Assembly: GCA_902761755.1 (NCBI GenBank)
Contig: CACWLP010000023.1
Span: 1 to 35,758, forward strand
DNA: 35,758 bases
Source of the DNA: an uncultured Eubacteriales bacterium
GTDB lineage: Bacteria > Bacillota > Clostridia > Christensenellales > Aristaeellaceae
Reading direction: 5' to 3'
The notes beneath the pieces are model-generated. The model had not been told where the DNA came from. It searched no databases and worked only from the letters and a program-made list of their open reading frames with translations. This document shows, piece by piece, positions 12,835 to 30,859 of this stretch. A program made the position numbers and the translations under genes. How positions within the stretch are numbered: the stretch's first letter is position 1; every line of letters begins with the position of its first letter.

Positions 12835-12868
12835 AGTATTTCCCTCTTCTCCTTGGCCTTTTCGATCG

Positions 12869-15046: not shown

Positions 15047-15058
15047 GCCGCCACCTCC

Positions 15059-15550
15059 TCACTGCAGCAGCAGCGAGATGGGCTGCAGATCCTCCGTGAC
15101 CACTTCGCCGGTGTAGACGCCCGCTTCCAGATCCGTGATCACCGGCACTTCCACCACCGGGTCGCCCACGCTTAAGTTTCCGCTGAGCAGCACCCGGGGG
15201 GAGATCTCCTCCGACACGATGATCACGTCATGTTGACCGTCGGTCTTCAGCGGATAATCGGCGCCTTCCACCCGGATGACGCCCCGGGAAAGCACCTTGT
15301 CCACCATGTCGTAGCCCACATAGACGGTTTTCTTTTCCGGGCTGACGGAAACGGCGAATTCCTCCGTGGTGCGGATATGCCCGAAAATCCCCCACAGGAT
15401 GCCGCCCACCAGCAGCGCGATCACCGCCGCCAATACCAGCCAGATCCCCGGAGACGTGACCCGCAGGTAGTCGTTCAGCGACTCCGGCGATTCCACGGCC
15501 TCCAGGCTTTTCTCACGGAACAGTTTGGTCTTCGGTTGTTGTTCAGACAT
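15059..15550 (-). CDS. Short HlyD-like membrane protein of the NHLM export system
   Basis: A 163-residue protein with a cytoplasmic N-terminus (FREKSLEAVESPESLNDYLRV, typical of NHLM HlyD proteins), one membrane segment at about 36-56 and a C-terminal beta-rich part. It is far shorter than usual membrane fusion proteins (around 400 residues) and lacks the long coiled-coil hairpin, consistent with a Gram-positive cell without an outer membrane. It is the first gene of the - strand export operon, with GAGGAG about 9 bases before the ATG. The operon is divergent from the BY-kinase operon; no - strand promoter could be assigned confidently. The short beta-rich tail may dock to the two transporters outside the membrane. 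Confidence 0.8.
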   Translation of the reverse strand: MSEQQPKTKLFREKSLEAVESPESLNDYLRVTSPGIWLVLAAVIALLVGGILWGIFGHIRTTEEFAVSVSPEKKTVYVGYDMVDKVLSRGVIRVEGADYPLKTDGQHDVIIVSEEISPRVLLSGNLSVGDPVVEVPVITDLEAGVYTGEVVTEDLQPISLLLQ

Positions 15551-15978
15551 GGCGAAGTGCTCCTCTCGTTGGTTTCCGCTTCAGGACCGCCGTCGGATCA
15601 GGGGCCGGCCTGTTTTTCCGCCCGGCCCTGCCTGCGCGCCCGGCGGCATGCTCCCGCGCCGCGTGGGATGCGATCCGTTTTTTGAAAACGGCGCGGCCCC
15701 CGATCCCCTTCCGCCGGGGATCGTCCAGGGGGGCGGCGGACAAATTTGTTAACAGATTCACGTCAGTGCATATTTTATCATATTTTTTTTGCGGACGCCA
15801 CCCTTTGCAGAAAATTTTTTCCATTTTAACGGGGAAAAAACCCCGAAAATACACAAAATTGTTTTGACAAGATTCCCGTTTGCCCGTATAATGTTATGTG
15901 GGTTTTTTTGCGACCCAAAAAATGGTTCCGCATACGCCGGCACAGAAAAATGCCGATCGAATAACGGGGAGTTGACCG
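15551..15978. other. 428-base divergent intergenic region
   Basis: This separates the peptide export operon (-) from the BY-kinase operon (+). The left part is GC-rich and the right part, from about 15760, is strongly AT-rich. It holds the + strand promoter at 15864-15892 and, just upstream of that -35 box, a perfect inverted repeat CGGGG (15830-15834) / CCCCG (15841-15845) around six A residues that could be an operator. No convincing gene or structured RNA was seen, and no clear - strand promoter. Confidence 0.6.
15864..15892 (+). promoter_or_regulatory. Perfect consensus sigma-A promoter of the BY-kinase operon
   Basis: TTGACA at 15864-15869 and TATAAT at 15887-15892 are separated by exactly 17 bases. 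The start codon is at 15979, leaving a leader of about 80 bases with GGGGAG as ribosome binding site. Such an ideal promoter suggests strong basal transcription, perhaps checked by a repressor. Confidence 0.9.
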
Positions 15979-17448
15979 ATGTCCATGAACAAGCAGCCCA
16001 CCGCCAACGACAGACAGGCAGTCAGCATCGATCTGATCAAACTGGCCAAGTTTCTTCTGAAATACTGCTGGCTGATCCTGCTTTGCGCCGCCGTCGGATT
16101 CTGTTTCATGCAATGGCGCAGCTCAAGGGTCAAAGTGGCTGATACCTATACGGCTGCGGGCACGATGTACGTATACAATTCAAATCCGAATATGATCAAT
16201 TACGGCTACGCCAGCACTTCGGATATCAAAAGCGCCGTTACGCTGCTGGACACCTACATGGAAGTGGTGAAAAGCAACAAAGTGCTGGATGTGGTCGCGG
16301 AGCGGCTGGCGCCGGATTACCCGACGATCACGCCGGGCCAGATCAGGGCGACCCTGTCCATGGCTTCGGTCAATGAAACCGGCGTGGTGAGCGTCCGCTG
16401 CACCACCACCGATCCGCAGCAGTCCGCGGACATCTGCAACGCCGTCATGGACGTGGCGCCGGCGGAGATCATCCGCGTGGTGGGCGCCGGCAGCATCGAG
16501 ATCATCGACTACGCCACGGTCCCCACGGCGCCCAACGGCTATTCCCCCGCCAGGAAAAACATGATCGGGGCCTTGGTCGGCGCGGCGGCGGCGGCAGCGG
16601 TGCTGGTCCTGTTTTTCCTGCTGGATTCCAAGGTCCGGGACGCCTCGGAAATAGAGGAGCGCTATACCCTTCCCGTCCTCTCCTCGATCCTTCGGGAAAA
16701 GAAGGAGAGCCGGGATCCCAGCGAGTTCCGCCTGACAGGCGACAGCCCCATGGATCAGCTGGAGGGGTACGCCAAGCTGCGGATGAACCTGATGTACACC
16801 CTGGTAGCAAAAGAAAGTCATTCCGTAATGATCACCAGCGCCATTTCCGGCGAAGGAAAATCCACCATCGCCGCCAATCTGGCCATCTCCATCGCCATGA
16901 GCGGCAAGCGGGTGCTTCTGGTGGACGCCGATATGCGGCGCGCCTGCCAGCGCCGGATCTTCCATTACAGCGGGAAAAACCCGGGCCTTTCCGACGTGCT
17001 GGTAGGCAGCTGCCCCTGGCAGAACGCCCTGATCAGCACCGATCTACAGGAGCTGGAGATCCTGCCGGCGGGCACGGTGCCGCCGAATCCCACGGAAATG
17101 CTGGATTCCCCCGCCATGCACGCCCTTCTCCCGCAGCTGGAGCAGTCCTACGACATGGTGATCCTGGACGCGCCCCCCGTGAACGTCGTCAGCGACGCTT
17201 TCGCCCTGGCTTCCAGTATTTCCGGCAGCCTGTTCGTGGTCCGGCAGAAATATACGGACCACCGGGACATCCGCAAGGCGCTGCGCCAGGCGGAATTGGG
17301 CGGGCTGGAGCTGCTGGGCTTCGTTTTCTACGGAGAAAAGCTGGAACATGGCAGCAGCAGAAAATATTACGATCAGTATTATCACAAGTACGACACCCGG
17401 AGAAAAAAAGACGCGCATCGGCCTGAACGGGATTCGGAAAAGGAGTGA
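15979..17448 (+). CDS. Wzz-BY-kinase fusion (capsule/exopolysaccharide-type tyrosine kinase)
   Basis: A 489-residue bacterial tyrosine kinase with its membrane activator in the same chain. TM1 is at 29-46, an extracellular Wzz-like domain at 50-180, TM2 at 193-215, and a cytosolic kinase from about 260. The kinase has Walker A SAISGEGKST (287-296), Walker A' LLVDADMR (313-320) and Walker B VILDAPP (394-400). The C-terminus bears a tyrosine cluster, SSRKYYDQYYHKYD (Y463, Y464, Y467, Y468, Y471), the usual autophosphorylation tail. The typical role is control of polysaccharide chain length and export. No glycosyltransferase, flippase or polymerase gene accompanies it here; instead it is followed by a giant repeat protein and an LCP-like protein, so its target may be unusual. 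Confidence 0.92.
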   Translation: MSMNKQPTANDRQAVSIDLIKLAKFLLKYCWLILLCAAVGFCFMQWRSSRVKVADTYTAAGTMYVYNSNPNMINYGYASTSDIKSAVTLLDTYMEVVKSNKVLDVVAERLAPDYPTITPGQIRATLSMASVNETGVVSVRCTTTDPQQSADICNAVMDVAPAEIIRVVGAGSIEIIDYATVPTAPNGYSPARKNMIGALVGAAAAAAVLVLFFLLDSKVRDASEIEERYTLPVLSSILREKKESRDPSEFRLTGDSPMDQLEGYAKLRMNLMYTLVAKESHSVMITSAISGEGKSTIAANLAISIAMSGKRVLLVDADMRRACQRRIFHYSGKNPGLSDVLVGSCPWQNALISTDLQELEILPAGTVPPNPTEMLDSPAMHALLPQLEQSYDMVILDAPPVNVVSDAFALASSISGSLFVVRQKYTDHRDIRKALRQAELGGLELLGFVFYGEKLEHGSSRKYYDQYYHKYDTRRKKDAHRPERDSEKE

Positions 17449-17455
17449 GAAAAAG

Positions 17456-20400
17456 TTGAAACGCACGCAAAAATGGCTCGGCCTGCTGCTGGTTCTCTTA
17501 TTGGCGGCAGCCACCGTCCCCGCCGCCAACGCCCAGGGCGATCCGGCGCTGTCCATTCCGGCTTTCACGGAAACGGACTGCGTCTGGGATGAAAGCGGCA
17601 ATCTGATCAGCGAAACGGCCCACGGTCCGGACGGCGCGCCGGCACTGAACAGCCGCGGGTTCGCCCGGGCCGAATACGCCTGGGATGAGCACAATAATCT
17701 GCTGACGGAAGCGTACTTCGGCCTGAACGGCGAACCGGTCGCCGCGGACGGCGGTTACGCCCGGGCCGAATATACCTACGGACGGCAGGCGAACGGCCGC
17801 AGCTATGTGCTCACCGAGGACCGCTATGCTCCGGACGGCAGCCGCGCCCAGATCCCCGGCAGCTACAGCTTCCGGCGGGACGCCTGGGACGGCGAGCAGA
17901 TCCTCTCCAGCGAGTATTTCGACGCGGACGGCGCTCTGGTGCGGCCTGTGGGCGGATACGCCCAGATCCTGTATGACGTGGCGCTGGAGGAGGATACGAA
18001 AACCGTCACCAAGCGCTATCTGGACGCCGACGGCTCTCCCCTGCTGGGCACGGAGGGCGGCGCCACGGTGGTTTCCGTGTACACCGCCAACACCGCCAGG
18101 CCCCTGAATGAGGAAGTGGAGGAAAGCTTCCAGGGCATGCAGACGGATCCCGGCACCCGCAGGGACGGCACGGCCAAAAAATGGAAGCTCCAGTCCACGG
18201 AAATCTTCTCCCTGGACGGCGGCAAAGCCCTGGGGGCGAAGCACTGGCACCGCATGGTCAATACCTATGATGAGCGGGACAACCTGATCCGGGTGGACTA
18301 TACCGGCACGGAAGGCGAGCCCATCATCGCCGGCACGGGCTACGCCTCCCTCACCAACGCGTACGATGAACTGGACCGCGTGGTGGAAACCGAATACCTG
18401 GGCAAGGAAGGCCAGCTGATCAAAATGATCAACGGCTACGCCAAGCTGACCTACGAGTATTACGGCGAATCGGACAAAATCCATTATATCCGTTATTTCG
18501 GCGCGGACGGAAGCCGCACGATGACCACCACCGGCATTTCCATGGAAGAAAGGGAATATGACGGCGAGGATTTCGATTATCGGGAAACCTTCTATGACGT
18601 GCTGGACGAATACACCATGTCCAACGGCGGTTTCGCCCGCCATGACGTGCTGTATCACCGCGATCGGGGATACGACGACGACGGCAACGAGCTGTGGATC
18701 GTCAATCCCACCGCCGTGGAGCGGGAGCGCTTCTTCGGCACGGACCTGGAGCTGATCCAGCTCAAGGCCGGGTACGCCGGCATCGTGAACGAATACAACG
18801 AATCCAATCAGGTGGTGCGCACGGCGTACATGGGCAGCCAATGGCAGCCGGTCCGGAACGATGAAAGGCAGCTGTCCTCCATCACCTATCGCTATCAGGG
18901 CACCGATCCCAAAGAGCCCGCCGTGTACGAGGCCTATTTTGACCTGGACGGCCTGCCCTGCGAATCCCTGAACGGCGCCTATGCCCGGAGCATGGTGTAC
19001 GGCGGCCCCATGCAGAACCTGCTGCTGGAGGAAGCCTTCTTCACCGCCGACGGGGAAAAGGACACCAACGTGGTCAACGGCGCCCATCGGGTGGTATACA
19101 CCTTCAACGGCGATCTGCTGCAGACCTCCGCGCGGTACTTTGACAAGGACGGCAATCCTTCCGCCGACCGCCAGGGCATGGCGGCCATGCTGCGGGAATA
19201 CAACCGGGACGGCAGCCTCCTGTGGCAGGCCACCTTCGGCACCGACGGCCAGCTGATCTCCACCGGCGGTCAGGGCGCCGTCCAGGTGCATACCTACGAT
19301 TATTCCAGCCATCACACCGGTGAAAAATACTACGGCGCCGACGGCACGCCGCTGACCCAGGCGGTGGGCTACGCCTCCGTCACCTACGAATACGACAGCC
19401 ACGGCAACATCACCGTCATCAATTATTTCAACGCGGAAGACGGCCCCGCCCTGGTATCGGGCCGCGCCCGGATCGAGCGGGAATACGACGATCAGCACCA
19501 CATGCTCTACGAAGCGAACTTCGGCAGCGACCTGCAGCCGGTGCTGGTCCGGGAAGGCTATTCCGCGCGGCGTTTCGCCTATGATCCGGTGCTGGGCATC
19601 ACCACCAAAGTGGAATATCTGGGCGCCGACGGCGCTCCGGTGCTGCTTTCCACGGGCTACGCCTCCTATGAGCTTCAGTACGATTCCCACGGGAACCTGC
19701 TGCGCCGCGCCTATTACGACGAAGCGGGCCAGCCCGTGGCGCCGCCTTCCGTAGGGTACGCCTGGTTTGAAAGGAAATGCGATATCCACGACCGGGTGCT
19801 GGAGGAAGCGCGCTACGGCGCGGACGGCAGCCTGATCGTGAACCCCGACAAATACGCCGTCATGACCACGGTGTATGACGATGAAAACAATACGGAAACC
19901 CTGACTTACCTGGACGCGGACCGGAAGCCGGTGGATACCGCGTTCGGCTACGCCAGCCTGGCGACCGCTTACGATCACCGGGGCAACGTGCAGAGCAAAA
20001 GCTATTTCGGCGCCGACGGGCAGCCCGTGGCCATTCCGGACGGCTATCACCAGGCCGTATTCACCTGGGATGAGGAAGGGCGCATGCTGGCCGAATCCTA
20101 CAAAGACGTGAACGGCGCGCCGGCGGAATGCCCCAACGGCTACGCTTCCTTCCAGAGAGAATACGATCTGCGGGGCAATCTGGTCCGCGAGGTGTATTAC
20201 GGCGCGGACGGGCAGATCACGAAGGTCAGCGCCGGCGCCGCGGAGATCCGGCGGGAATACGACAGTGAAGACCGCCTGCTCAGCGAACGGTATTTCGACG
20301 AAACCGGGACTCCTTACAAGCTCCGGGGCGATTACGCCGCCGTGGAATATGTCTACGACGGCCACGGCGATATCCTGAAGGAAGCGTACTTCGGCGTGAA

Positions 20401-23311
20401 CGGAGAGCCGGTAGTCTCCTCCAAGGGATACGCCCTGAAGGAATGCGCCTATGACGACGCCGGGCACCTGCTCTCCGAGGAATACTCCGACGGCATGGGC
20501 ACCCTGATCGTGCAGTCGAAGGGCTACGCCCGCAAGCTGCAGACCTGGAGCCCCACGGGCTTCCTGACCAGCGAAGCCTACTTCGGCGAGGATGGCAACC
20601 CCATCCTGCAGGAAGGCCGTTACAGCTACAAGACCTACCTGCGGGACGCCAACGGCCTGTGCACCGAGGAGCAGTGGTACTACTCCCAGGGCAATCCCAC
20701 CCAGATGCCGGGGGGCTATGACCGCATCACCCACGAATACGACGCGGCGGGCCGCTGCATCCGTTCGGTGTGGTATTTCAGCGGCGAGATCGTCATGACC
20801 GAGGACGGGTACGCCGCCGCGGATTACGAATACGACGCCCGCGGCCGCCTGACCAAGGAAAGCTATCTGGATGACAAGATGGACCGCGTGATGGTCCACA
20901 AGGGCTATTCCGCCATCGCCCGGGTTTACGACAACGCCGGGAATACCCTGCAGGTCCGGTATCTGGACGATCAGGACAATCTGGTGCGTCTGCCCGAGGG
21001 CTTTAGCGTCTGGCAGCGGGAATACGACCAGTACAATCACGTGATCCTGGAGCAGTACCTGGACGAAAACGAGCGCATCGCCTCCCTGACGAACCGCACC
21101 GTCGCCTCCCGCCGGTACTACGACGCCCGGGGCAACCTGGTCCGGGTGGAAAACCTGAACGCCGGCATGCAGGCGGTGGAAACCCAGTTCGGCTACGCCA
21201 GCATCGCCTACGGCTACGACGCCCAGGACCGCAGGATCAGCGAGGATTATCTGGATGCCAGCGGCCTCAACACCATGATCTCCGCCGGCTATTCCGGCAT
21301 CCGCTACGAATACAGCGATCAGGGCAAGGTCTGGCGCACCACCTACGTGGACACGTACAACCAGCCCACCCTGTTCAAGGACGGCTACGCCGCCGTGCAG
21401 TACCTGTACGACGACAACCAGTATCTGAAGAGCATCGTCTATCTGGACGACAAATACGACCGCACCTACATCAGCGCCGGGTATTCCGCCATCCTGCGCA
21501 CCGTGGATAAGAACGGCGACGTGCTGACGGAAACCTACCTGGACAGCGAGGATTCCCCCGTGCCCTGCTCCGCCGGCTACGCCGCCATGCGCAACACCTG
21601 GGACGACCGCCAGCGCCTGGTAAAGCGGCAGTATCTGGATGCGGAAGGCCAGCCCATGACCCTGAGCGGCGGCTACAGCGCCATCGGCTACGTCTATGAC
21701 AACAGCGACAACGTCACCCGCCAGACCTACTACAACACCAAGGGCGCCCAGGTCTGGGGGCCGTACGGCTACAGCGAGATCCTTTACAAATACGACGCCC
21801 GGAACAACTGCATCGAGGAAAAGCTCCTGAACGTCCAGGGCCAGCCCGCCGTTCACACCCAGGGCCGCTATTCCTCCCTCACCCGGGAGGTAGACCCGGA
21901 CGGCCGCGTCCTCTCCGTTAAGTATTTCGACATTTCGGGCAATCCGGTGGCTTACGCCAACAGCTACGCGGAGATCCGCTACACCTACGACCTGGCGGGC
22001 CGCGAAACCTCCCGGAGCTTCTACGACCGGGCCGGCAACCCCACCGTGAACCTGCAGAGATACGCCAAGAAGACCACCGAGTACAACCCCCTGGGCAATG
22101 TGACGAGGGAAGCGTACTACGACGTGGACGGCAATCTGACGGACACGACGATGAATTACGCCGTGGCCGAGTACACCTACGACGATCTGGGCAACCTCAC
22201 GTCCGAAAGGTATCTGGACGCCCAGTTCCTGGGCGTCACGCCGGAAGGCGCGCAGTACGCCTACGCTCTGATGGATTACGACGAGGAGGGCCGCCTGGTC
22301 AGCGAGGAATACTACGATGAATACGACCGCCTCGCGCCCAGCCGGGAAGGCTACGCCGCCCATTACATCTCCTACGCCGAAAGCGGCCGGGTGGCGGAGG
22401 AATCCTACATCGACACCAGCCGCCAGCCCATGGTGGTCGGCAGCTTCAGCCGCCGCGTACTGGTCTCCGAGGATGAAGACGCCCGCACCTACGTGATGCG
22501 GATCATGGACGAAACGCTGCCGGAGGACGCCTACACCTGCTCCCTGCAGACCTTCGATCATTACGACCACGCCATCGTCTTCCGCTATCTGGACGGCCAG
22601 AACAATCCGGCCATCGGCCCCGAGGGCTGCAGCATGGTGGAAAAGGAATACACCAGCCGCGGCCAGGTGTCCCTGGAGAAATACTTTGACGCGGAGGGCA
22701 ATCCCTGCGCCGTGGACGGCGTGTACGGCGTGCGCAGGGAGTATTCTCCCTTCGCCAAGCTGGAAAAGGAAACCTGGCTGGACCGGGATGGCAATCCCGC
22801 CGTCACGAAGGACGGTTTCGCCGCCAAGCTGTACGATTATGACCTGAGCAACTCCCAGCGGGTGGAAAAATACTTCTGCTACTACCTGGATCTCAACGGC
22901 GGGCGCTGCGCCGCCAGCAACGGCGCCTGGGGCATCAGCACCCTCTACTACCCCGCCACCCGGGTGCACGAGGTGACCTTCCTGAACGCGGAAGGCGATC
23001 CCGTGACCACCACGGACGGCTACGCCATCCTGGAATACGAAAACGACGACTATGGCAACGTGGTCTGGGAAGGCTATTACGACAGCTATCACGCCCCGAT
23101 CAACTGCGCTGCAGGCTATTCCAGCGTGGAGCGCAGCTTCGACGGCGAGGGCAGGCTGATCTCCGAAAGGTATCTGGACCGTTACAACAAGCTGACCAAC
23201 AACGTAGACGGCGTGGCGGGCTGGAACGGCTACTACACGCCGGACGGCGAGCTGATCATCAACAACCGGTACGATCAGGACCGCAAAACCGTGCCGGCGG
23301 ACAATCAGTAA
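17456..23311 (+). CDS. Giant secreted protein of about 33-residue YD-like tandem repeats
   Basis: A 1951-residue protein with a TTG start (GGAG 12 bases upstream) directly before a signal peptide, MKRTQKWLGLLLVLLLAAATVPAANA. Nearly all the rest is a diverged tandem array of about 55 units of 32-33 residues with the pattern GYAxxxYxYDxxGNLxxExYxGADGxPV. The units recall YD/RHS or MORN-like beta repeats, but there is no Rhs core, autoprotease or toxin tip. The C-terminus (DRKTVPADNQ) lacks a sorting signal or membrane anchor, so the product is probably released, polymer-associated or held by a partner. Seven bases separate it from the BY-kinase gene and 15 from the LCP-like gene; all three appear cotranscribed. 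Acidic and aromatic residues dominate and cysteine is scarce. Function is unknown; a matrix or carbohydrate-contacting role is inference. Confidence 0.85.
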   Translation: MKRTQKWLGLLLVLLLAAATVPAANAQGDPALSIPAFTETDCVWDESGNLISETAHGPDGAPALNSRGFARAEYAWDEHNNLLTEAYFGLNGEPVAADGGYARAEYTYGRQANGRSYVLTEDRYAPDGSRAQIPGSYSFRRDAWDGEQILSSEYFDADGALVRPVGGYAQILYDVALEEDTKTVTKRYLDADGSPLLGTEGGATVVSVYTANTARPLNEEVEESFQGMQTDPGTRRDGTAKKWKLQSTEIFSLDGGKALGAKHWHRMVNTYDERDNLIRVDYTGTEGEPIIAGTGYASLTNAYDELDRVVETEYLGKEGQLIKMINGYAKLTYEYYGESDKIHYIRYFGADGSRTMTTTGISMEEREYDGEDFDYRETFYDVLDEYTMSNGGFARHDVLYHRDRGYDDDGNELWIVNPTAVERERFFGTDLELIQLKAGYAGIVNEYNESNQVVRTAYMGSQWQPVRNDERQLSSITYRYQGTDPKEPAVYEAYFDLDGLPCESLNGAYARSMVYGGPMQNLLLEEAFFTADGEKDTNVVNGAHRVVYTFNGDLLQTSARYFDKDGNPSADRQGMAAMLREYNRDGSLLWQATFGTDGQLISTGGQGAVQVHTYDYSSHHTGEKYYGADGTPLTQAVGYASVTYEYDSHGNITVINYFNAEDGPALVSGRARIEREYDDQHHMLYEANFGSDLQPVLVREGYSARRFAYDPVLGITTKVEYLGADGAPVLLSTGYASYELQYDSHGNLLRRAYYDEAGQPVAPPSVGYAWFERKCDIHDRVLEEARYGADGSLIVNPDKYAVMTTVYDDENNTETLTYLDADRKPVDTAFGYASLATAYDHRGNVQSKSYFGADGQPVAIPDGYHQAVFTWDEEGRMLAESYKDVNGAPAECPNGYASFQREYDLRGNLVREVYYGADGQITKVSAGAAEIRREYDSEDRLLSERYFDETGTPYKLRGDYAAVEYVYDGHGDILKEAYFGVNGEPVVSSKGYALKECAYDDAGHLLSEEYSDGMGTLIVQSKGYARKLQTWSPTGFLTSEAYFGEDGNPILQEGRYSYKTYLRDANGLCTEEQWYYSQGNPTQMPGGYDRITHEYDAAGRCIRSVWYFSGEIVMTEDGYAAADYEYDARGRLTKESYLDDKMDRVMVHKGYSAIARVYDNAGNTLQVRYLDDQDNLVRLPEGFSVWQREYDQYNHVILEQYLDENERIASLTNRTVASRRYYDARGNLVRVENLNAGMQAVETQFGYASIAYGYDAQDRRISEDYLDASGLNTMISAGYSGIRYEYSDQGKVWRTTYVDTYNQPTLFKDGYAAVQYLYDDNQYLKSIVYLDDKYDRTYISAGYSAILRTVDKNGDVLTETYLDSEDSPVPCSAGYAAMRNTWDDRQRLVKRQYLDAEGQPMTLSGGYSAIGYVYDNSDNVTRQTYYNTKGAQVWGPYGYSEILYKYDARNNCIEEKLLNVQGQPAVHTQGRYSSLTREVDPDGRVLSVKYFDISGNPVAYANSYAEIRYTYDLAGRETSRSFYDRAGNPTVNLQRYAKKTTEYNPLGNVTREAYYDVDGNLTDTTMNYAVAEYTYDDLGNLTSERYLDAQFLGVTPEGAQYAYALMDYDEEGRLVSEEYYDEYDRLAPSREGYAAHYISYAESGRVAEESYIDTSRQPMVVGSFSRRVLVSEDEDARTYVMRIMDETLPEDAYTCSLQTFDHYDHAIVFRYLDGQNNPAIGPEGCSMVEKEYTSRGQVSLEKYFDAEGNPCAVDGVYGVRREYSPFAKLEKETWLDRDGNPAVTKDGFAAKLYDYDLSNSQRVEKYFCYYLDLNGGRCAASNGAWGISTLYYPATRVHEVTFLNAEGDPVTTTDGYAILEYENDDYGNVVWEGYYDSYHAPINCAAGYSSVERSFDGEGRLISERYLDRYNKLTNNVDGVAGWNGYYTPDGELIINNRYDQDRKTVPADNQ

Positions 23312-23326: not shown

Positions 23327-24421
23327 ATGAAAGAATCGAGCAACCGCAAACCGCGTTCCCTGCGCGTCCTGTTCAGGCTCATCGCCCTGGCGCTCGTCCT
23401 GTGCCTCCTGCCTGCGTTTGCCGCGGCGGAGAGCGCGGAGGAAGAAGCCGGGGAATGGGTGGAATTCCTGCTGATCTGCAACGAAGGCATGAATAACGAC
23501 AAGGGCAACGCGGGCAACACCCTCATGGTAGTGTCCATGAACCCCGAAAAAGGCAAGATCCGGCTGCTGATGTTCACGTGGGATACCTTCATCGAATACG
23601 AGGGCTACGACGTGCCCCAGAAGCTGGATATGCCCTACCGCAACAACGGCCCCGAGGGAGCCATGAAGGTGTTCAACGCCAACTTCGGCACCAACATTCA
23701 GCACTACATGTCCCTGAACTACCTGAACCTGGCCAGCATGATCGACGATTACGGCGGGGTGGACGTGGATATTTCCCGGGCGGAGCGCAACGCCCTCAAC
23801 GGCATGGTGGGCTCCAAGAAGAACCAGCTGCTGGCCCAGGTGGACAGCGGGCTGCTGACCCAGGCCATGGTGGACATGCTGGCGGACGAGTATTACCTCA
23901 CCGAGTTCGGCCCCGGCACCCATCTGAACGGCCTGCAGGCCGTGGGCTATGGCTGGCTGCAGTACGATTCGGTCTACAACTGCTGCGGGCGCGAAGCGAA
24001 GGTCATTGCCAGCATGTTTGAGAACTGCAGCAACACCATCTCCAAGAAGATCGCCTTCTATACCGACGCATCGGGCTTCCCGGAGAAGCTGAACGGCCGC
24101 CGGGCGGTCAATCTGGACAATATGACCCAGAGCGACTACGAATTCATCCGCGCGCAGCTGGCGCCGATCTTCCAGAAATCCTACAATAACCTGCCCGAAG
24201 ACGTGATCCGCTCCATCACCGTCTCGCTGGCCAGGGTGGCGTACGAAGCCTCCCGCCAGGGCGCGGACATTTTCGATGAGGATCACGTGAAATTCAAGGT
24301 CCTCCCCCTGGAGGCCACCCAGGAATACGACATTATCGCCGGCGCGAAGGGCCATATCGTGGACAAAGAGGCCAATTCCAAGGCCATCCGCGAATTCCTC
24401 TTACAGGACGACGATAACTGA
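23327..24421 (+). CDS. LCP (LytR-CpsA-Psr) fold protein with altered active site
   Basis: A 364-residue protein with a signal peptide or N-terminal membrane segment (about 12-35) and an LCP-like domain (46-240). The core NTLMVVSMNP, NYLNLASMIDDYGGVDVDI and GTHLNGLQAVGYGWLQYD corresponds to canonical LCP strands and helices. LCP enzymes transfer undecaprenyl-linked glycans to peptidoglycan. Here several ligand residues are lost: the SDT Asp is Asn64, the PRDT Arg is Trp85 (FTWDT), and the arginine pair of YARxR is replaced (YGWLQ). The later GRE motif (221-223) remains. It may thus bind rather than transfer, or use another substrate. AAAGGAGG precedes the ATG. It is the last gene of the BY-kinase operon, followed by a terminator. 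The family call is fairly sure; loss of activity is inferred. Confidence 0.82.
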   Translation: MKESSNRKPRSLRVLFRLIALALVLCLLPAFAAAESAEEEAGEWVEFLLICNEGMNNDKGNAGNTLMVVSMNPEKGKIRLLMFTWDTFIEYEGYDVPQKLDMPYRNNGPEGAMKVFNANFGTNIQHYMSLNYLNLASMIDDYGGVDVDISRAERNALNGMVGSKKNQLLAQVDSGLLTQAMVDMLADEYYLTEFGPGTHLNGLQAVGYGWLQYDSVYNCCGREAKVIASMFENCSNTISKKIAFYTDASGFPEKLNGRRAVNLDNMTQSDYEFIRAQLAPIFQKSYNNLPEDVIRSITVSLARVAYEASRQGADIFDEDHVKFKVLPLEATQEYDIIAGAKGHIVDKEANSKAIREFLLQDDDN

Positions 24422-24525: not shown

Positions 24526-24554
24526 TTGACAGCGCTCTTTTTCTCCCATATAAT
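24526..24554 (+). promoter_or_regulatory. Perfect consensus sigma-A promoter of the peptide operon
   Basis: TTGACA at 24526-24531 and TATAAT at 24549-24554 lie 17 bases apart. The expected transcription start, near 24561, is only about 20 bases before the GTG start at 24582, which excludes the longer upstream reading of the first gene. No other strong promoter was seen before 30859, so the whole peptide operon may depend on it. Confidence 0.9.
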
Positions 24555-24581: not shown

Positions 24582-25076
24582 GTGAGCAAGCCCATTCCGT
24601 CCGTCCGTGTGCTGCCGACGGAGCAGTATTTTTCCCTGGTCCGTCAGCAGCTGGCTGAAACGGGCCAGGCCTTCGTCCGCGTCACGGGCGTCAGCATGCA
24701 GCCGCTGCTGCGCCATTTGCGGGACGGGGTGGTGCTGGGGCCTCCACAGCGCCTCCGCAGGGGGGACATCGTGCTTTTCGACCGGCTGAACGGGCGCTAC
24801 GCGCTGCACCGCGTCATCCGGGTCGGGAAGAACGGGTTCACCATGGCGGGCGACAATCAATGGCACGTGGAAAAGGATCTGCCCTTCGGCCAGGTAGTGG
24901 GCGTGGCCGTCGCCCTGGAACGGAAGGGCCGCCGGATCCCCTGCGAAAACTTTTTCCTGAAAATGTATTCCCAGGCGGTGACAGCCCTCACATTTCCGCG
25001 TATATACTTACGAAAAGCAGCGGGAAAGCTATTCAGGCTGTTCCGCCGACAGCCCGGGAAAGGAGCGCGCGCATGA
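24582..25076 (+). CDS. S24/S26-type Ser-His peptidase-like protein of a peptide gene cluster
   Basis: A 164-residue protein resembling the catalytic core of signal peptidases. It has Ser38 in GVSMQP, His76 in YALHRVI and Asp91 in the AGDN box, i.e. the Ser-His arrangement of SipW/eukaryotic-type S26 enzymes rather than Ser-Lys. Unlike membrane signal peptidases it has no N-terminal membrane segment; the basic C-terminal part (LTFPRIYLRKAAGKLFRLFRR) may be amphipathic. Such S24/S26-like genes occur beside PqqD and radical SAM genes in Clostridia; leader cleavage is a reasonable guess but unproven. The GTG at 24582 is chosen because it follows GGAGGTG and lies after the promoter. Its stop overlaps the PqqD start (ATGA). 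It is the first gene of the operon. Confidence 0.8.
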   Translation: MSKPIPSVRVLPTEQYFSLVRQQLAETGQAFVRVTGVSMQPLLRHLRDGVVLGPPQRLRRGDIVLFDRLNGRYALHRVIRVGKNGFTMAGDNQWHVEKDLPFGQVVGVAVALERKGRRIPCENFFLKMYSQAVTALTFPRIYLRKAAGKLFRLFRRQPGKGARA

Positions 25077-25339
25077 AGATCAAGCCGGGATACATCCTGC
25101 GGGAAGTCATGGACATTTTCGTGATCATCGGGGTGGGCAGCGAGGCCTACTCGCCCAACGAGATCCTCAGCCTGAATGAAACCGGCGCGTTCCTCTGGCG
25201 CATCCTGGAAAAGGGCGCGGAAAAGCCGGAGCTGGCGGCGGCCCTGCAGCGGGAATACGATACCGATCCGCAAACCGCGGAAAGGGACGTGGACGTTTTC
25301 CTGGAGATGCTGCGGGGAAAGGCGCTGATCGACGGATGA
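25073..25339 (+). CDS. PqqD-family peptide-binding protein (RiPP recognition element)
   Basis: An 88-residue stand-alone PqqD-like winged-helix protein: YILREVMDIFVIIGVGSEAYSPNEILSLNETGAFLWRIL is the typical strand-strand-helix start, followed by a PELAAALQREYD helix and a DVDVFLEMLRGKALI C-terminus. PqqD proteins hold the leader of a precursor peptide for a modifying enzyme, usually a radical SAM protein. Both its ends overlap its neighbours by 4 bases (ATGA), showing tight translational coupling to the peptidase-like gene before and the radical SAM gene after. AAAGGAG lies 8 bases before the ATG. Confidence 0.92.
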   Translation: MKIKPGYILREVMDIFVIIGVGSEAYSPNEILSLNETGAFLWRILEKGAEKPELAAALQREYDTDPQTAERDVDVFLEMLRGKALIDG

Positions 25340-26487
25340 TCCAGAAGCAGTGGGATCTGAACAAGGTCACAGACCGGATCCAGCTGCAGGCCATCCGGCA
25401 GCGCAGGCCGCTTTCCTGCACCATGGAGCTCACCTACCGCTGCAATTTTCATTGCCGCATGTGCTACGTCCGCATGACGGACGCCCAGGCCGCGCCCTAC
25501 GGCCGGCTGCGCACGGTGGACGAATGGCTGGATATGGCCCGGCAGATGCGGGACGCGGGCGTGCTGTACCTGACCCTCACCGGCGGGGAATGCACCCAGT
25601 ATCCGGGGTTCGAGGAGCTGTACGGGCAGCTTTCGCAGCTGGGCTTCCGCATCAGCATCATGAGCAACGCCGGCGCGTACACCGATTCCGTTCGGGACGT
25701 ATTCCGCCGCTATCCCCCCGTCAGCGTGGGCATCACCCTCTACGGCGGCAGCAAGGAAACCTACGCCGCCGTCACCGGCGATCCCGAAGGCCTGGACAGG
25801 GCGGTGGAGAACATCCGCTTTTTCCGGTCCATCCGGGTGCCTGTGGGCTTGAATTTCACCATGATCCGGCAGAACGTGCTGGATTATCCCCTGGTGGGCA
25901 GGCTGTGCCGGGACCTCGGCTGCTCCTGGACGCTGATCACCGACATCAACGGCCACCGGCACGACGTTTCCATGTCGGACGCGCTGCAATGCCGCCTCTC
26001 CCCCGCCCAACGGGCCTGCGTGGCCTGCCACCCGCCGGAGGAAGCGGCCCTGGCCATGGAAAACGCCAAGGAGCTGGAAAAGGCGCTGGCCGGCTTCCAA
26101 ATGCCCCAGGCGCCCGCGGAAGCGCCGCCGCCTGAGCCGGACGCCTGCATCGGAGCTTCATCCGGCTGCGCCATCTACTGGAACGGGGAAATGAACACCT
26201 GCATTTCCTTGAACGGGCGCGGCAACGCGCACCCCTTTGAAACGGGCTTCGAGGCTGCCTGGGCGCAGCTGAAAGCCCAACAGGACGAGACCTTTCGCCG
26301 CCCTGCAGCCTGCCAGGCGTGCGGCATGCAGGAAGACTGCCTGCACAACTGTGCCGGCCGGCGGTTTGAAGGTACGGGCTCCCCGCACGGGCCCGACCCA
26401 TACACCTGTCAGTACACGTATCTGCTGCGGCTGTACAAGGCCCGGCGAAACGGCGCTGACATCCCCCCTTCCCCCACCTGCGTCTGA
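25336..26487 (+). CDS. Radical SAM peptide maturase with SPASM-like C-terminus
   Basis: A 383-residue enzyme with the radical SAM cluster motif CNFHCRMC (C36, C40, C43), a GGE motif in LTLTGGECTQYPGF, and a cysteine-rich C-terminus for auxiliary iron-sulfur clusters. The latter includes CIGASSGCAIYWNGEMNTC, then CQACGMQEDCLHNCAGRR and a final CQY. SPASM enzymes make thioether or carbon-carbon crosslinks in precursor peptides. Its coupling to PqqD and position 41 bases before a short Cys/Gly-rich gene (26529-26729) make that peptide the likely substrate. A PAEAPPPEP linker (about residue 260) before the C-terminal cluster region looks flexible. The type of crosslink cannot be told from the sequence. 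Confidence 0.93.
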   Translation: MIQKQWDLNKVTDRIQLQAIRQRRPLSCTMELTYRCNFHCRMCYVRMTDAQAAPYGRLRTVDEWLDMARQMRDAGVLYLTLTGGECTQYPGFEELYGQLSQLGFRISIMSNAGAYTDSVRDVFRRYPPVSVGITLYGGSKETYAAVTGDPEGLDRAVENIRFFRSIRVPVGLNFTMIRQNVLDYPLVGRLCRDLGCSWTLITDINGHRHDVSMSDALQCRLSPAQRACVACHPPEEAALAMENAKELEKALAGFQMPQAPAEAPPPEPDACIGASSGCAIYWNGEMNTCISLNGRGNAHPFETGFEAAWAQLKAQQDETFRRPAACQACGMQEDCLHNCAGRRFEGTGSPHGPDPYTCQYTYLLRLYKARRNGADIPPSPTCV

Positions 26488-26528
26488 GGCCCGAAGCCCG
26501 GCGCGACCCAAGAAAAGGAGAGATTCCC

Positions 26529-26729
26529 ATGAAAAAGTACGAAGCCCCGGAACTGTTCGTCGACACCTTCGCCGCGGATACCATGATTGCGTCTGGTGGC
26601 GGCGGCGGCGGCCCCAAGAATGACAATGCCGGCAACAACCAGAATTGCTGGGGTGAAAACTGTATACCCGGTGCCGTAGAAGACGGACAAAACGCCTGCC
26701 TTGGGGGCGTATACAGTCACGGTTGCTAA
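26529..26729 (+). CDS. Putative RiPP precursor peptide, Gly/Asn/Cys-rich
   Basis: A 66-residue peptide with a leader-like start (MKKYEAPELFVDTFAADTMI), a run of six glycines (23-28) and an Asn/Gly-rich C-terminal half containing four cysteines (C40, C45, C57, C66, the last being C-terminal). There is no signal peptide. AAAGGAGAG precedes the ATG at good spacing. Its position directly after PqqD and the SPASM radical SAM gene supports the role of substrate, with thioether crosslinks from the cysteines as the obvious possibility. The double glycines could also allow cleavage by a C39 peptidase. It overlaps the longest possible version of the next gene. The mature product, if any, cannot be inferred. 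Confidence 0.8.
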   Translation: MKKYEAPELFVDTFAADTMIASGGGGGGPKNDNAGNNQNCWGENCIPGAVEDGQNACLGGVYSHGC

Positions 26730-26739
26730 TAAAACTGGA

Positions 26740-27558
26740 ATGTTTTCATTCGGGCAGGTTGCTGTTCAATTTACGGGAAGCGAAAACTTTAGCGCTTTAC
26801 TCAGGCCATCTTTTCAGAAGTATGGAAAAAACACGGGCGATTTGCCGATCACTGTGGTTTTGAATATTGAAAAAAAGCCACTTTTGTTTGGTGTACCCGG
26901 TTTCTCTGGTTGGAGTTCAGTAAGCGAGGGAAACCAACGACAGGTCGTTTATTCCGATGAAAAGAAAGCTGTTTTTTCCCTTCAATATGGAATGAAGGAC
27001 TACAGCGTAAGCGTTCTCGTTGATCCCAACTCGCAAACCTCTGTTCAGGCTGCAGCTCAATTCGGTCTGATGGTTGCATTGTACAAGGACTGCATTGGGC
27101 TCCATGGCGTGACGCTGCTTTGTGGAAATGAGGTTGTAATCCTCTCCGCGCCCAGCGGCACAGGAAAAACCACTTTAGCGCATCTGCTGGAAACATACTG
27201 CGGTGCCAGTGTGATCAACGGCGATTTTGCCTTGCTGACCCCAACAGAAAACGGCGTGATCTTTGAGCCGACCCCCTTCTGCGGCTCGTCCGGCAGATGC
27301 CTGAATCATCGGGTGCGGGTCAACCGGGTGGTATTCCTGGAACAGGGAAAAACCAACGAATGGCGGAAGCTGGAAGAAAGGGAAGCCCTCATCCGGTTCA
27401 TGAACAATGCGTTTGTTCCCACCTGGGACGGCGGGATGCAGCAGGCCGTGCAGGAAAACATTCTGAAATGCATCTCCACGCTGAAGGTCAATTTGTTTTC
27501 CTTCGCCCCCACGCGGGAAGCAGCAGAAATGTTTCTCAATCAATTATGTCCCCAATGA
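26740..27558 (+). CDS. HprK-like P-loop kinase domain protein of the peptide cluster
   Basis: A 272-residue protein resembling the HPr-kinase C-terminal fold found in lasso-peptide and other RiPP clusters. It has GLHGVTLLCG before the P-loop, Walker A SAPSGTGKTT, then a VINGDFALL acidic motif and CLNHRVRVNRVVFL. Relatives phosphorylate precursor peptides, so tailoring of one of the two peptides here is a fair hypothesis. The start is uncertain: no clear ribosome binding site precedes ATG 26740, and a TTG at 26701 in frame would give 285 residues and overlap the precursor gene by 29 bases. The N-terminal 400 bases are noticeably richer in A and T than the neighbours, a possible sign of separate origin. 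GC content rises again toward the 3' end. Confidence 0.82.
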   Translation: MFSFGQVAVQFTGSENFSALLRPSFQKYGKNTGDLPITVVLNIEKKPLLFGVPGFSGWSSVSEGNQRQVVYSDEKKAVFSLQYGMKDYSVSVLVDPNSQTSVQAAAQFGLMVALYKDCIGLHGVTLLCGNEVVILSAPSGTGKTTLAHLLETYCGASVINGDFALLTPTENGVIFEPTPFCGSSGRCLNHRVRVNRVVFLEQGKTNEWRKLEEREALIRFMNNAFVPTWDGGMQQAVQENILKCISTLKVNLFSFAPTREAAEMFLNQLCPQ

Positions 27559-27595
27559 AGAGCGATCTTCAATAAAAAATAGGAGGAGAAAAACT

Positions 27596-27835
27596 ATGGC
27601 AGAATTTGACTTCAAAGTACCTACCAGCAAGGAAGAAATGGAAGAGCTGCGCAAGACCCTGCGCGAAGAAATCTCCGATGAGGCCCTGGACAACGTCGTC
27701 GGCGGCAATGATGACCTGAAGGGCAAGAGCACCACAATCTGGACCTGCCCCTTCTGCGGTGCAGCAGTCAAGTGCAAACAGATGCAGGACGCTGCCAAGC
27801 ACATGACCAAGTGCCCCAACAACCCCTATAAGTAA
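27596..27835 (+). CDS. Peptide with double-glycine leader and CxxC/HxxxC core
   Basis: A 79-residue peptide. Residues 1-37 form a helical acidic leader ending in SDEALDNVVGG, the classic site for C39 peptidases. The 42-residue remainder has CPFC (C51, C54), C60 and a KHMTKC segment (H69, C73), looking like a small zinc finger or a disulfide-rich core, and ends NNPYK. GGAGGAG precedes the ATG. No C39 transporter lies in this operon: the ABC exporter at 28494-30176 lacks the peptidase. The C39 transporter at 12869-15046 is therefore the nearest candidate for processing. The next gene encodes a CPWC thioredoxin-like protein that could set the redox state of the cysteines. Alternatively it may be a cytosolic zinc-ribbon protein with a chance GG. 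Confidence 0.8.
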   Translation: MAEFDFKVPTSKEEMEELRKTLREEISDEALDNVVGGNDDLKGKSTTIWTCPFCGAAVKCKQMQDAAKHMTKCPNNPYK

Positions 27836-27857
27836 TCCTTCCGAACCGACCCTTCCG

Positions 27858-27884
27858 CCTGGCAGGCCCCCTGCCAGGCCTGTT
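27858..27884 (+). terminator. Terminator or attenuator after the double-Gly peptide gene
   Basis: CCTGGCAG at 27858-27865 pairs perfectly with CTGCCAGG at 27871-27878, followed by CCTGTTTCT. The short, broken T-tract suggests partial read-through, which would make the peptide gene more expressed than the genes behind it. Confidence 0.6.
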
Positions 27885-27904
27885 TCTATGGAGGTGTTTT
27901 CCCC

Positions 27905-28462
27905 ATGAAAAAAGGCCTGAAAATCCTCTGCCTGATCGTGGCGCTGATCGCGGTGTTCCTGCTGGGATGGCGGCTGATGCCCCGGGTGTGGCCCGGCATC
28001 AAGGAGGCTATCGTTTATCCGGTCTTCCCCCAGATGCGGCCCGCCGCGGCCCCGGCCCCCACCCAGGAGCCGTATGTGCCCAAGAGCAGCGCGGCCTTCG
28101 GCGACCCCGTGGGCGAAACCGACAGCCTGATCTATTATTTCTATAAGGATTACTGCCCCTGGTGCCGCGAATTGGAGCCCCTCACCGCGGGCCTGCCCCG
28201 GCAGATCATCCTGCCCGACGGCACGGCAAGCGCGGTGAAGCTGGTGTGCCTCAACAAGGTGGAGGAGCCCATGCTGCAGGTGATCACCGATTACTACGAA
28301 AAGTACGAAATCCCGGAGGAGCAGCAGTACGTGCCCGCCATGGTGATCGGGGATAAATACCTGTTCGCCGGCGAGGAGATCGTGCCCGGGCTGCTGGAAG
28401 CCCTGACTGCCGGCGACGGATTGAAAACCCCGCTGCTGGACGGGAACGAACGGGTAAAATAA
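27905..28462 (+). CDS. Membrane-anchored thioredoxin-fold protein (CPWC)
   Basis: A 185-residue protein with an N-terminal membrane anchor (about 5-23), a Pro/Ala-rich spacer and an extracytoplasmic thioredoxin-like domain. The active-site motif is CPWC (C84-C87) in FYKDYCPWCREL, and YVPAMVIGDKYLFAGEE supplies the cis-Pro-like segment before the last strand. It should reduce, form or isomerise disulfides outside the membrane. GGAGG lies 9-10 bases before the ATG. Its position between the Cys-bearing peptide gene and the exporter gene suggests that it acts on the exported peptide. A redox-sensing role is possible. Confidence 0.85.
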   Translation: MKKGLKILCLIVALIAVFLLGWRLMPRVWPGIKEAIVYPVFPQMRPAAAPAPTQEPYVPKSSAAFGDPVGETDSLIYYFYKDYCPWCRELEPLTAGLPRQIILPDGTASAVKLVCLNKVEEPMLQVITDYYEKYEIPEEQQYVPAMVIGDKYLFAGEEIVPGLLEALTAGDGLKTPLLDGNERVK

Positions 28463-28493
28463 TCATCCTGATGATCAAGAGCACAAAAAAAGC

Positions 28494-30176
28494 ATGAGCA
28501 ATTTCGCAAAAGTAAAACAAATCTTCAAAAGCCACGCCCTCCGCGCCATTTACCGCTGGAGCCGGCCGGTGCATAAGGCGCTGCTGCTGATCTGCCTGAT
28601 GAGCGTGGTGGGGTCGCTCACGTCCCTGGGGCTGACGATGGTGACAAAAAGCCTCATCGACGGGGCCACCGGATCGGACGAAGCCGCGCTGTGGAAATAC
28701 GGCGCGCTGCTGGTGGCGCTGATCGCGTTTTCCCGGCTGCTTTCGGTGCTGGGCTCGGTGGTGCGCATCCGGGCCAACACCCGGCTGCAGCAGCACATGC
28801 AGTCCATGGTGACTTCCTCCATCCTGGGCAAGGAATACGCCAGCCTGAAGGGCTTTCACAGCGGCGAACTGGTCAACCGCGTGTTTTCCGACGTGAGCGT
28901 GGTCAAGGGCGGCGTGATGGGCCTGCTGCCCAGCATGCTGAGCACCTTCGTCAGCTTCGTGGGCGCCGCGGTGATCCTGATTTCCATGGACTGGCGCTTC
29001 CTGCCGGTGCTGATCCTGGCGGCGGTGCTGGGCTCCGGGCTGATGCTGGCCTTCCGCAACCCCATGAAGCGCCGGCACAAGCGCATGCAGGAGGCCGAAG
29101 ACGCCCTGCACGCCTCCACCCAGGAGACCCTGGAAAACATCCGGGTGGTCAAGGCCAGCGTGTCCGAGGACCGGGCCATCTCCGCCATGGAGGAGCGCCG
29201 GGAGCACCTGCGCTCCGAGCAGCTCCGCAACGCCCGGCTGTCCATCTGGATGAACCAGGGCATGGGCAGCATGTTCGACGTGTCCTGGCTGATCTGCAAC
29301 CTGTGGGGGTGCGTGAAGATCTTCCACCATACAGGCTTCACCTACGGCTCCCTGGCCGCGCTGATCCAGCTGGTGGGCCGCATCCAGGCCCCCATCGCCA
29401 ACGCGGTCAACCTGGTTTCCCAGGCCTACGGGGTGGTGGCGTCGGCCGAAAGGCTGCTGGACGTGGTGGGCCTGCCCGACGAGGACGAGGGCACGCAGCT
29501 GGCCGCCTTCGATTCCATCCGCCTGGAGGACGTGAGCTTTAGATACGAGGACGCAAACGAGGACGTGCTGCTGGGCGTCAGCGGCGTGATCCGCCGGGGG
29601 GACTTCGTGGCCCTCACCGGAATCAGCGGCGGCGGCAAAACCAGCCTGTTCCAGCTGCTGCTGGGCATCTACAAGCCCACCGGCGGCAGGGTGCTTTTCA
29701 CCCTGGGGGATCAATGCTGCCCCGCCGCCCGGGGCACCCGTGGGCTGTTTGCCTACGTACCCCAGGGGAACACCCTGTTTTCCGGCACGCTGCGGGATAA
29801 CCTGACCATGTTCACCGATCAGGCCTCGGACGCGGAGATCCGCCAGGCCATCCACGCCGCGTGCCTGGATGCGCTGGTGGACGAAATCGGCCTGGACGCC
29901 ATGCTGGGCGAAAGGGGCATCGGCCTTTCCGAAGGCCAGGCCCAGCGGGTGGCCGTGGCCCGGGCGCTGCTGTCAAAAGCGCCCATCCTGCTGCTGGATG
30001 AATCCACCAGCGCCCTGGACGAACAAACCGAAGCGCAGCTGCTGCAGAATATTTCCGCCATGCGGGACAAGACCTGCATCATCGTGACCCATCGCCGGGC
30101 CGCCCTGGCGATCTGCGATTACACGCTGCACATTTCATCCGGCCGCATGACCCGGATCGAGGGAACGGAACAGTGA
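28494..30176 (+). CDS. ABC exporter of the peptide operon
   Basis: A 560-residue half-transporter. The membrane domain spans about residues 25-320 and the nucleotide-binding domain 340-560. The latter has Walker A GISGGGKTS (376-384), signature LSEGQ (478-482, a variant of LSGGQ), Walker B ILLLDE (498-503) and the switch His in VTHRR (H533). All catalytic residues are present, so it should be active as a homodimer. It lacks a C39 peptidase domain. Given its place after two peptide genes, it probably exports a mature peptide or gives self-protection. Its stop overlaps the start of the phosphoesterase gene (GTGA). No strong ribosome binding site is visible before its ATG. Confidence 0.92.
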   Translation: MSNFAKVKQIFKSHALRAIYRWSRPVHKALLLICLMSVVGSLTSLGLTMVTKSLIDGATGSDEAALWKYGALLVALIAFSRLLSVLGSVVRIRANTRLQQHMQSMVTSSILGKEYASLKGFHSGELVNRVFSDVSVVKGGVMGLLPSMLSTFVSFVGAAVILISMDWRFLPVLILAAVLGSGLMLAFRNPMKRRHKRMQEAEDALHASTQETLENIRVVKASVSEDRAISAMEERREHLRSEQLRNARLSIWMNQGMGSMFDVSWLICNLWGCVKIFHHTGFTYGSLAALIQLVGRIQAPIANAVNLVSQAYGVVASAERLLDVVGLPDEDEGTQLAAFDSIRLEDVSFRYEDANEDVLLGVSGVIRRGDFVALTGISGGGKTSLFQLLLGIYKPTGGRVLFTLGDQCCPAARGTRGLFAYVPQGNTLFSGTLRDNLTMFTDQASDAEIRQAIHAACLDALVDEIGLDAMLGERGIGLSEGQAQRVAVARALLSKAPILLLDESTSALDEQTEAQLLQNISAMRDKTCIIVTHRRAALAICDYTLHISSGRMTRIEGTEQ

Positions 30177-30859
30177 AAACATTCATCATCGGCGATATCC
30201 ACGGCATGAACGGCACCCTGCAGGCCATGCTGGACAAGCTGCAGCCGGACGAGCAGACGGACCGGCTGGTGCTGCTGGGCGATCTGTTCGACCGCGGGCC
30301 GGAATCCTGGGAGGTGTTTCAAACGGTCCGGTCGCTGGCCGTTTCCTTCGGCCAGCGCTTCGTGCTGCTCCTGGGCAACCACGAGGATTATCTGCTCCAG
30401 CCCAAGCTGACGCTGTCCCAGCGCATGGTGTGGGACCGGGTGGGCCGGGGCGCCACGGCCCAGTCCTTCGCCCGCCACGGCGCCCGGATGAAGGACGCCG
30501 TGCCCTGGCTGACGGAGCACTGCCGTTTGTTCTGGCGGGGCGAGGGAATCCAGTGCGTCCACGCCGGGCTGCTGGTGGACCCCATCGAAGCGAACGACCG
30601 CGCGGTCCTGATCCACGACCACGGCATCACGATGCAAAACCGGTATGCCGGGCCTCTCACCGTGGTGGGCCACATCGCCCTGGACGCGCCCACCTACTTT
30701 GCCGGAGACAGGGAGAATTACCGCAAGCTGCCCTTGGGTGAGACGGCGCCTCTGCCCGAAAACGGCATCATCTGCATCGATACGGGTTGCGGCAAGGGCG
30801 GCAGCCTCACCGCCATGGCGGTGGAAAACGGCAGTTTTCTCCTGAGATCCGCAAGATAA
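30173..30859 (+). CDS. PPP-family metallophosphoesterase
   Basis: A 228-residue phosphoesterase with the three PPP signatures: GDIHG (7-11), GDLFDRG (36-42) and GNHE (68-71). Further metal and phosphate contacts are plausible in VHAGLL and VVGHIALDAP. Relatives include bacterial PrpA/PrpE-type Ser/Thr phosphatases and ApaH-like hydrolases. The GTG start at 30173 overlaps the ABC exporter stop by 4 bases, so it is translationally coupled to export. The same operon encodes an HprK-like kinase, so dephosphorylation of a phosphorylated peptide or partner is an attractive but untested role. It ends the peptide operon. Confidence 0.9.
   Translation: MKTFIIGDIHGMNGTLQAMLDKLQPDEQTDRLVLLGDLFDRGPESWEVFQTVRSLAVSFGQRFVLLLGNHEDYLLQPKLTLSQRMVWDRVGRGATAQSFARHGARMKDAVPWLTEHCRLFWRGEGIQCVHAGLLVDPIEANDRAVLIHDHGITMQNRYAGPLTVVGHIALDAPTYFAGDRENYRKLPLGETAPLPENGIICIDTGCGKGGSLTAMAVENGSFLLRSAR

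Follow-up and report, generated by a model that had tools for sequence, protein, structure and literature searches.

The window analysed here, a stretch of 35,758 nucleotides of contig CACWLP010000023.1 (GCA_902761755.1) from an uncultured Eubacteriales bacterium of the Aristaeellaceae, contains a real, conserved two-peptide locus of the ribosomally synthesized and post-translationally modified peptide (RiPP) type, which is built from known parts and is undescribed in the searchable literature. Nine open reading frames (ORFs) in the same direction are present at 24582-30859 and encode, in order, an S24/S26-like Ser/His peptidase, a PqqD-family protein, a radical SAM enzyme, a short peptide (peptide A), an HprK-like kinase, a second short peptide (peptide B), a thioredoxin-like protein, an ABC exporter and a PPP phosphatase. 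There is good support for interpreting them as a RiPP operon whose two peptides are dissimilar and conserved; the fuller reading, that peptide A is modified by the PqqD protein, the radical SAM enzyme and the kinase while peptide B is a companion that leaves through an NHLM transporter with a C39 peptidase domain, is one that we favour with moderate confidence. Coordinates are window positions unless a locus label is given; L numbers denote loci, the window being one of those compared, and G numbers denote genomes.

Full-length matches to the peptide A and peptide B profiles were found in an identical set of five genomes out of 300 (G000, G099, G113, G208 and G209); L051 brings the loci with both peptides to six (the window, L031, L143, L051, L032 and L142), and the peptide B gene lies directly 3′ of the kinase gene, or of its interrupted frame in L051, at all six. 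An earlier note on this DNA had described two dissimilar peptides and named conserved gene order as a check; orthologous sets exist at five loci beyond the window, and both peptides are under purifying selection, with ratios of nonsynonymous to synonymous substitution rates (dN/dS) of 0.11-0.20 (peptide A) and 0.18-0.42 (peptide B); the radical SAM enzyme gives 0.12-0.36, and all values were computed against the window, many with dS near saturation. The gene order of L031 differs in that the ABC exporter and PPP phosphatase genes are upstream, and neither gene is present on the L143 and L051 stretches. Weak peptide B matches occur besides in G096 (the L144 array) and G108 (leader only), and 396 evenly sampled genomes of the order yielded peptide B in the window's own genome only. 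The radical SAM enzyme has matches at E<=1e-20 in 25 of 200 genomes, its own included, and its close relatives are in G099 (77% identity), G113 (61%) and G077 (57-67% in two pieces); the radical SAM proteins of the six loci and of L033 (G077), seven in total, group in a single clade (support 100/100). Scanning named genomes yielded 78 radical SAM loci; the five with 60-78% identity are all in metagenome-assembled genomes of Clostridia or Clostridiales and two labelled sheep omasum; three of the five were taken as G099, G113 and G077, and one is sequence-identical to the G209 contig.

The earlier note had placed all nine genes behind one perfect promoter, and the nine ORFs do follow an exact sigma-70-type consensus, TTGACA-N17-TATAAT (24526-24554, plus strand), one of two perfect sites in the window against 0.01 expected. 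The 4-base overlaps that it mentioned number three (S24 peptidase/PqqD, PqqD/radical SAM and ABC/PPP). A stem-loop of ten pairs with a weak T tail (27857-27879, plus strand), possibly an attenuator, separates peptide B from the thioredoxin-like gene, and a single transcript is therefore not assured; terminator-like sites are not enriched in the window (8 found, 7.2 in shuffles). In a Pfam scan the S24, PqqD, Radical_SAM, ABC and Metallophos matches are all over cut-off, the SPASM and thioredoxin matches fall under it and no HprK model matches the kinase, so that the SPASM, thioredoxin and HprK assignments rest on motifs and homologues, supplemented for the kinase by a fold model.

Peptide A (26529-26729, plus strand; 66 residues) was compared in six sequences. 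Its leader starts with K-K-Y-x-A-P-x-L, in which the Tyr, Pro and Leu of the YxxPxL motif are invariant in all six, and ends with D-T-M/V-I-A-S, a conserved leader end where the earlier note had seen no clear cleavage site in a Gly/Cys-rich peptide. Mean pairwise identity is 79% over the first 23 alignment columns versus 50% over the remainder, and within the core N37-Q38-N39-C40 and N55-x-C57 are invariant, motifs that we take to resemble those of the NxxC RaS-RiPPs. There are four cysteines in the peptide A of the window, L143, L051 and L031 and two in that of L032 and L142. Near radical SAM genes, the motif [AVIT]AS following YxxP is found in 19 of 1096 short ORFs on the same strand versus 2 of 1186 on the opposite strand; as a cleavage motif it is suggestive only, because the orthologues account for six of the 19 and in many precursor-like ORFs the ending is AA or AG instead.

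The PqqD-family RiPP recognition element (25073-25339, plus strand; PF05402, 63.9 bits; aligned at seven of seven loci) has as its best match among solved structures TbiB1 (E 1e-6), which we take to be a lasso B1 protein, and the next listed solved relative is named lasso PqqD chaperone or PqqD family protein; the NCBIfam lasso PqqD models score under cut-off (36.1 versus 70 bits and 28.7 versus 80 bits). B1 recognition requires the Tyr, Pro and Leu of YxxPxL (PMC10368454, in excerpt). The radical SAM enzyme (25336-26487, plus strand; PF04055, 72.9 bits) carries CxxxCxxC and a seven-cysteine SPASM pattern (C271, C289, C326, C329, C335, C339 and C358) that is invariant in four of four aligned sequences, although the Pfam SPASM score is 16.9 versus a cut-off of 21.5 bits. 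SkfB is its sole PDB match at E<=1e-10 (E 4e-17), and no curated maturase model is over cut-off, the top NCBIfam score being 61.8 bits versus a cut-off of 381 among the best 25 of 55 families. The TbiB1-like PqqD and the lasso-type YxxPxL leader make peptide A the likely substrate of the radical SAM/SPASM enzyme.

The HprK-like kinase (26740-27558, plus strand) has an alternative TTG start at 26701, but the ATG at 26740 fits the orthologues and is probably the true start; an overlap with the peptide A gene is therefore not required. The P-loop SAPSGTGK, H135 and D175 (numbered from the longer TTG form) are invariant in five of five aligned sequences. The model of the kinase has the PEPCK/HPr-kinase fold, with PEPCK entries top-scoring and a mean predicted local distance difference test score (pLDDT) of 80; the NCBIfam model HprK_rel_A gives 17 bits versus a cut-off of 200. 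HprK homologues phosphorylate lasso precursors: BsfK targets Ser3 of the core with B1 assistance (PMC10368454, in excerpt), and the HPr-kinase homologue of paeninodin targets the C-terminal Ser (PMC8498205, in excerpt). T18 and S22 of peptide A are the predicted phosphosites, because no other Ser or Thr column is invariant in either peptide. The peptide A sequences of L143 and L051 contain no other Ser or Thr at all; in L143 the target, if it is a Ser or Thr of peptide A, is consequently one of these two.

Peptide B (27596-27835, plus strand; 79 residues) has a leader ending in V/IVGG, in agreement with the GG leader of the earlier note, and a C-terminal finger C-x2-C-x14-H-x3/4-C (x3 in the window) whose C, C, H and C are invariant in six of six sequences and which ends in NPYK, or in NPFK in L031. 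A model of low overall confidence predicts strand-strand-helix at residues 47-72 with moderate confidence there; peptide B is probably a small zinc finger of the C2HC type. No NHLP/Nif11 leader model matches it at E<=1. Related sequences appear in other settings. At L032 (6852-7789, minus strand), an Ala/Pro/Glu-rich protein that reads as Sec-type has a C-terminal finger of the peptide B type and occupies the place of the thioredoxin-like gene. At L144 (443-6155), on a contig with no match to the window's radical SAM enzyme, short peptides with GG leaders and CxxC cores resembling zinc ribbons are encoded in tandem, four of five scanned peptides matching zinc-ribbon-type models weakly and under cut-off. 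At L145 (G108, 5595-10714), a divergent radical SAM cluster comprises PqqD and two genes each of the HprK-like and S24 types, with an ABC gene close by, and a GG-leader peptide (8726-8980) adjoins a YxxP-like one (8393-8599); pairs with two leader types may extend beyond peptides A and B.

The S24/S26-like peptidase (24582-25076, plus strand; PF00717, 27.6 bits, cut-off 23.3) is a candidate leader peptidase with Ser38 and His76 invariant in six of six aligned sequences. The thioredoxin-like protein (27905-28462, plus strand; Pfam thioredoxin 15.1 bits, under the cut-off of 23.5) has a CPWC motif and a hydrophobic N-terminus that reads as a membrane anchor. Its gene is present at four of the six loci, namely those with a four-cysteine peptide A, and missing at L032 and L142, the loci with a two-cysteine peptide A; no match at E<=1e-5 was found in the genomes of these loci, G113 and G208, which are 80% and 83% complete. 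The protein was accordingly rejected as an essential part, and the thiol handling that the earlier note proposed is retained only as an option of one lineage. Matches at E<=1e-5 occur in 20 of 300 genomes, six of them over 260 bits. At L158 (G204, 8019-14486), a different radical SAM cluster contains a thioredoxin homologue of >260 bits, two Cys-rich peptides, PqqD, HprK, S24 and an ABC protein 72% identical to that of the window.

The PPP/calcineurin-like phosphatase (30173-30859, plus strand; PF00149, 61.5 bits) has the motifs GDxHG, GD..DRG and GNHE invariant in five of five aligned sequences, and its gene overlaps that of the ABC exporter (28494-30176, plus strand), which matches PF00664 and PF00005 with no C39 domain match. 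PPP matches occur in 14 of 150 genomes at E<=1e-60. At 13 loci outside the window's genome, none from the five peptide A genomes, nine have an ABC match that stops 3-96 bases short of the PPP gene, and no HprK was found within 5 kb (tblastn E<=1e-8 with the window's kinase as query, several stretches being short). A dedicated kinase-phosphatase combination was accordingly rejected as a specific reading: the phosphatase is mostly part of a family-wide ABC-PPP pair rather than a partner of the kinase. L034 (G117) is a counter-example in which HprK, PqqD and PPP are consecutive and the ABC gene is farther upstream. In L173-L184 the conserved ABC exporter-PPP phosphatase pair is found in relatives, at some loci beside housekeeping genes.

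The ABC protein at 28494-30176 is the exporter that the earlier note reported, but a C39/NHLM exporter at 10615-15550 had been overlooked. About 9 kb upstream of the operon, on the opposite strand, are genes for an NHLM ABC1 exporter with a C39 peptidase (12869-15046, minus strand; TIGR03796, 896.8 bits, cut-off 853.3; PF03412, E 4.6e-32), a candidate for processing and exporting peptide B; an NHLM ABC2 exporter subunit (10615-12834, minus strand; TIGR03797, 696.6 bits, just under the cut-off of 709.4); and a short HlyD-like NHLM secretion protein (15059-15550, minus strand; TIGR03794, 38.3 bits, under the cut-off of 156.2 and in its N-terminal part only). Of the six loci, four have NHLM genes nearby, namely the window, L031/L159, L032 and L142, with identities in the latter three of 82-92% for ABC1, 70-86% for ABC2 and 55-64% for HlyD; none were found at L033.

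PqqD, HprK, S24 and ABC genes surround many related radical SAM genes, which makes the framework around peptide A common; the peptide pair is not. Among 99 loci kept after five duplicates were dropped, 96 have a qualifying radical SAM gene, the window and its orthologues included; within 6 kb of these genes are PqqD at 61, HprK-like at 59, S24 at 38 and a similar ABC gene at 27, with PqqD, HprK and S24 together at 21, PPP at 5 and thioredoxin at 5. L142, L145 and L158 were fetched because of other genes, and the counts slightly favour those genes. The claim that the combination matches no known RiPP class holds insofar as no curated maturase fits, but besides the common framework there is the logic of phosphorylated lasso peptides. 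Like the paeninodin and BsfA systems, the locus has a YxxPxL leader, a stand-alone PqqD/B1 protein, an HprK-like kinase and an ABC exporter; unlike them, it has a radical SAM/SPASM enzyme in place of the B2 peptidase and cyclase, an S24-type peptidase and a core without a ring acceptor. It shares with sactipeptide and ranthipeptide systems (SkfB and PapB types) a SPASM radical SAM gene next to a Cys-containing precursor, SkfB being the nearest solved relative, and differs in scoring far under all curated maturase cut-offs and in its separate lasso-type recognition element, kinase and NQNC/NxC core. NHLM systems are alike in ABC1 with C39 over cut-off, ABC2, a HlyD-like protein and a GG-leader peptide, whereas the leader of peptide B is short, matches no NHLP/Nif11 model and precedes a finger-like core. 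No description of the gene set or peptide pair was found in the searched literature, mostly papers outside subscription; a mention of HPr kinase makes PMC4289311, seen in excerpt, a possible source, and PMC9062424, also in excerpt, may mention the gene set among its 22 unreported pathways, which were not matched one by one.

Several neighbours of the cluster are also found at L031. A 1987-residue RHS-repeat protein (17348-23311) and a protein that reads as LytR-like (23327-24421) adjoin the cluster in both, and a CHASE2-SpoIIE phosphatase (2217-4136) has its L031 counterpart after the thioredoxin-like gene. A protein on the minus strand (4420-6555) reads as a further SpoIIE-type phosphatase with a sensor part, and the other perfect promoter (15864-15892) is upstream of a gene (15979-17448) whose product reads as Wzz/Wzc-like.

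In the pathway that we infer, PqqD would bind the YxxPxL leader of peptide A and present the core to the SPASM radical SAM enzyme, which would probably install one or two links, thioether or otherwise oxidative, at the invariant C40 and C57, both of which stand beside an invariant Asn; each link is predicted to lower the mass by 2 Da. The target of the kinase would probably be Ser22 or Thr18, where leader and core meet, the S24-type peptidase would probably cut near D-T-M-I-A-S, and the ABC protein without C39 would probably export the product; where two extra cysteines are present, the thioredoxin-like protein would probably oxidise them to a disulfide. The NHLM C39 transporter would process peptide B at VVGG and carry it out of the cell. 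The strictest form of this pathway, in which PqqD hands one peptide to both a crosslinker and a Ser kinase to give a phosphorylated, thioether-linked product while its partner is secreted by the separate C39 route as an unmodified zinc-finger mini-protein, is doubtful. A number of observations weigh against the favoured reading. No product or activity is known for the cluster, and L033 (G077) retains PqqD and the radical SAM gene with neither peptide. A second structural comparison of the kinase model gave PEPCK entries only among the 50 matches listed, and the kinase frame of L051 is broken by stops, which may be an assembly error, although peptide A there retains T18 and S22. No significant fold match to the peptide B model (mean pLDDT 63.7) was found in structure searches. 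The loci with the thioredoxin-like gene and four cysteines are a single tree branch (92/94) and therefore count as one event, and close thioredoxin homologues sit among housekeeping genes in G006 and G026. NHLM genes were not found on the L051 stretch (19.1 kb) or the L143 contig (6.2 kb) and are common in relatives without these peptides, with ABC1 at E<=1e-200 in 41 of 150 genomes, the window's own included; this frequency weakens an assignment of NHLM specifically to peptide B, and the link is plausible rather than specific.

Three other explanations were weighed. The locus might be a loose neighbourhood in which a common PqqD/radical SAM/S24/HprK RiPP unit lies beside an ABC-PPP pair and a secreted zinc-finger peptide that are both unrelated to it, as the occurrence of ABC-PPP without RiPP genes in relatives, the order of L031, the stem-loop behind peptide B and the L143 and L051 stretches would allow; it is unlikely, given that the two full-length peptides co-occur in every genome found with either, that peptide B keeps its place after the kinase frame and that the L145 cluster also pairs GG-leader and YxxP-like peptides. 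It is less probable again that peptide B, alone or together with peptide A, is the radical SAM substrate and is exported through NHLM as in Nif11/NHLP systems. Peptide B is always found with peptide A and this radical SAM gene, and radical SAM proteins may be present in NHLP/Nif11-type clusters (PMC4289311, in excerpt), but the stand-alone PqqD resembles a lasso B1 protein, the reader of leaders such as that of peptide A, no NHLP/Nif11 model matches peptide B, and its Cys/His spacing suits metal binding and recurs in the Sec-type protein of L032.

A phosphorylated lasso peptide with the radical SAM enzyme as extra tailoring is very improbable. The leader, the lasso-type PqqD and the kinase would suit it, and HPr kinase and PqqD are recurrent in rumen lasso clusters (PMC7533575, in excerpt), but a Pfam scan of the nine genes found no transglutaminase-type peptidase and no Asn-synthetase-type cyclase (the cyclase search being limited to these genes), the host genome (about 73% complete) has no B2 match over cut-off and one sub-threshold match, and the peptide A alignment has no conserved Asp/Glu column at core positions 7-9, where the ring would close.

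If the favoured reading of a modified peptide A with peptide B as its companion is correct, radical SAM crosslinking and HprK-type peptide phosphorylation, which are known apart, would be joined on one lasso-type leader, with a secreted zinc-finger peptide added as a constant companion. The predicted phosphosites T18 and S22 and the predicted link sites C40 and C57 are narrow enough for direct testing, and the product may serve in antagonism or signalling between gut bacteria.

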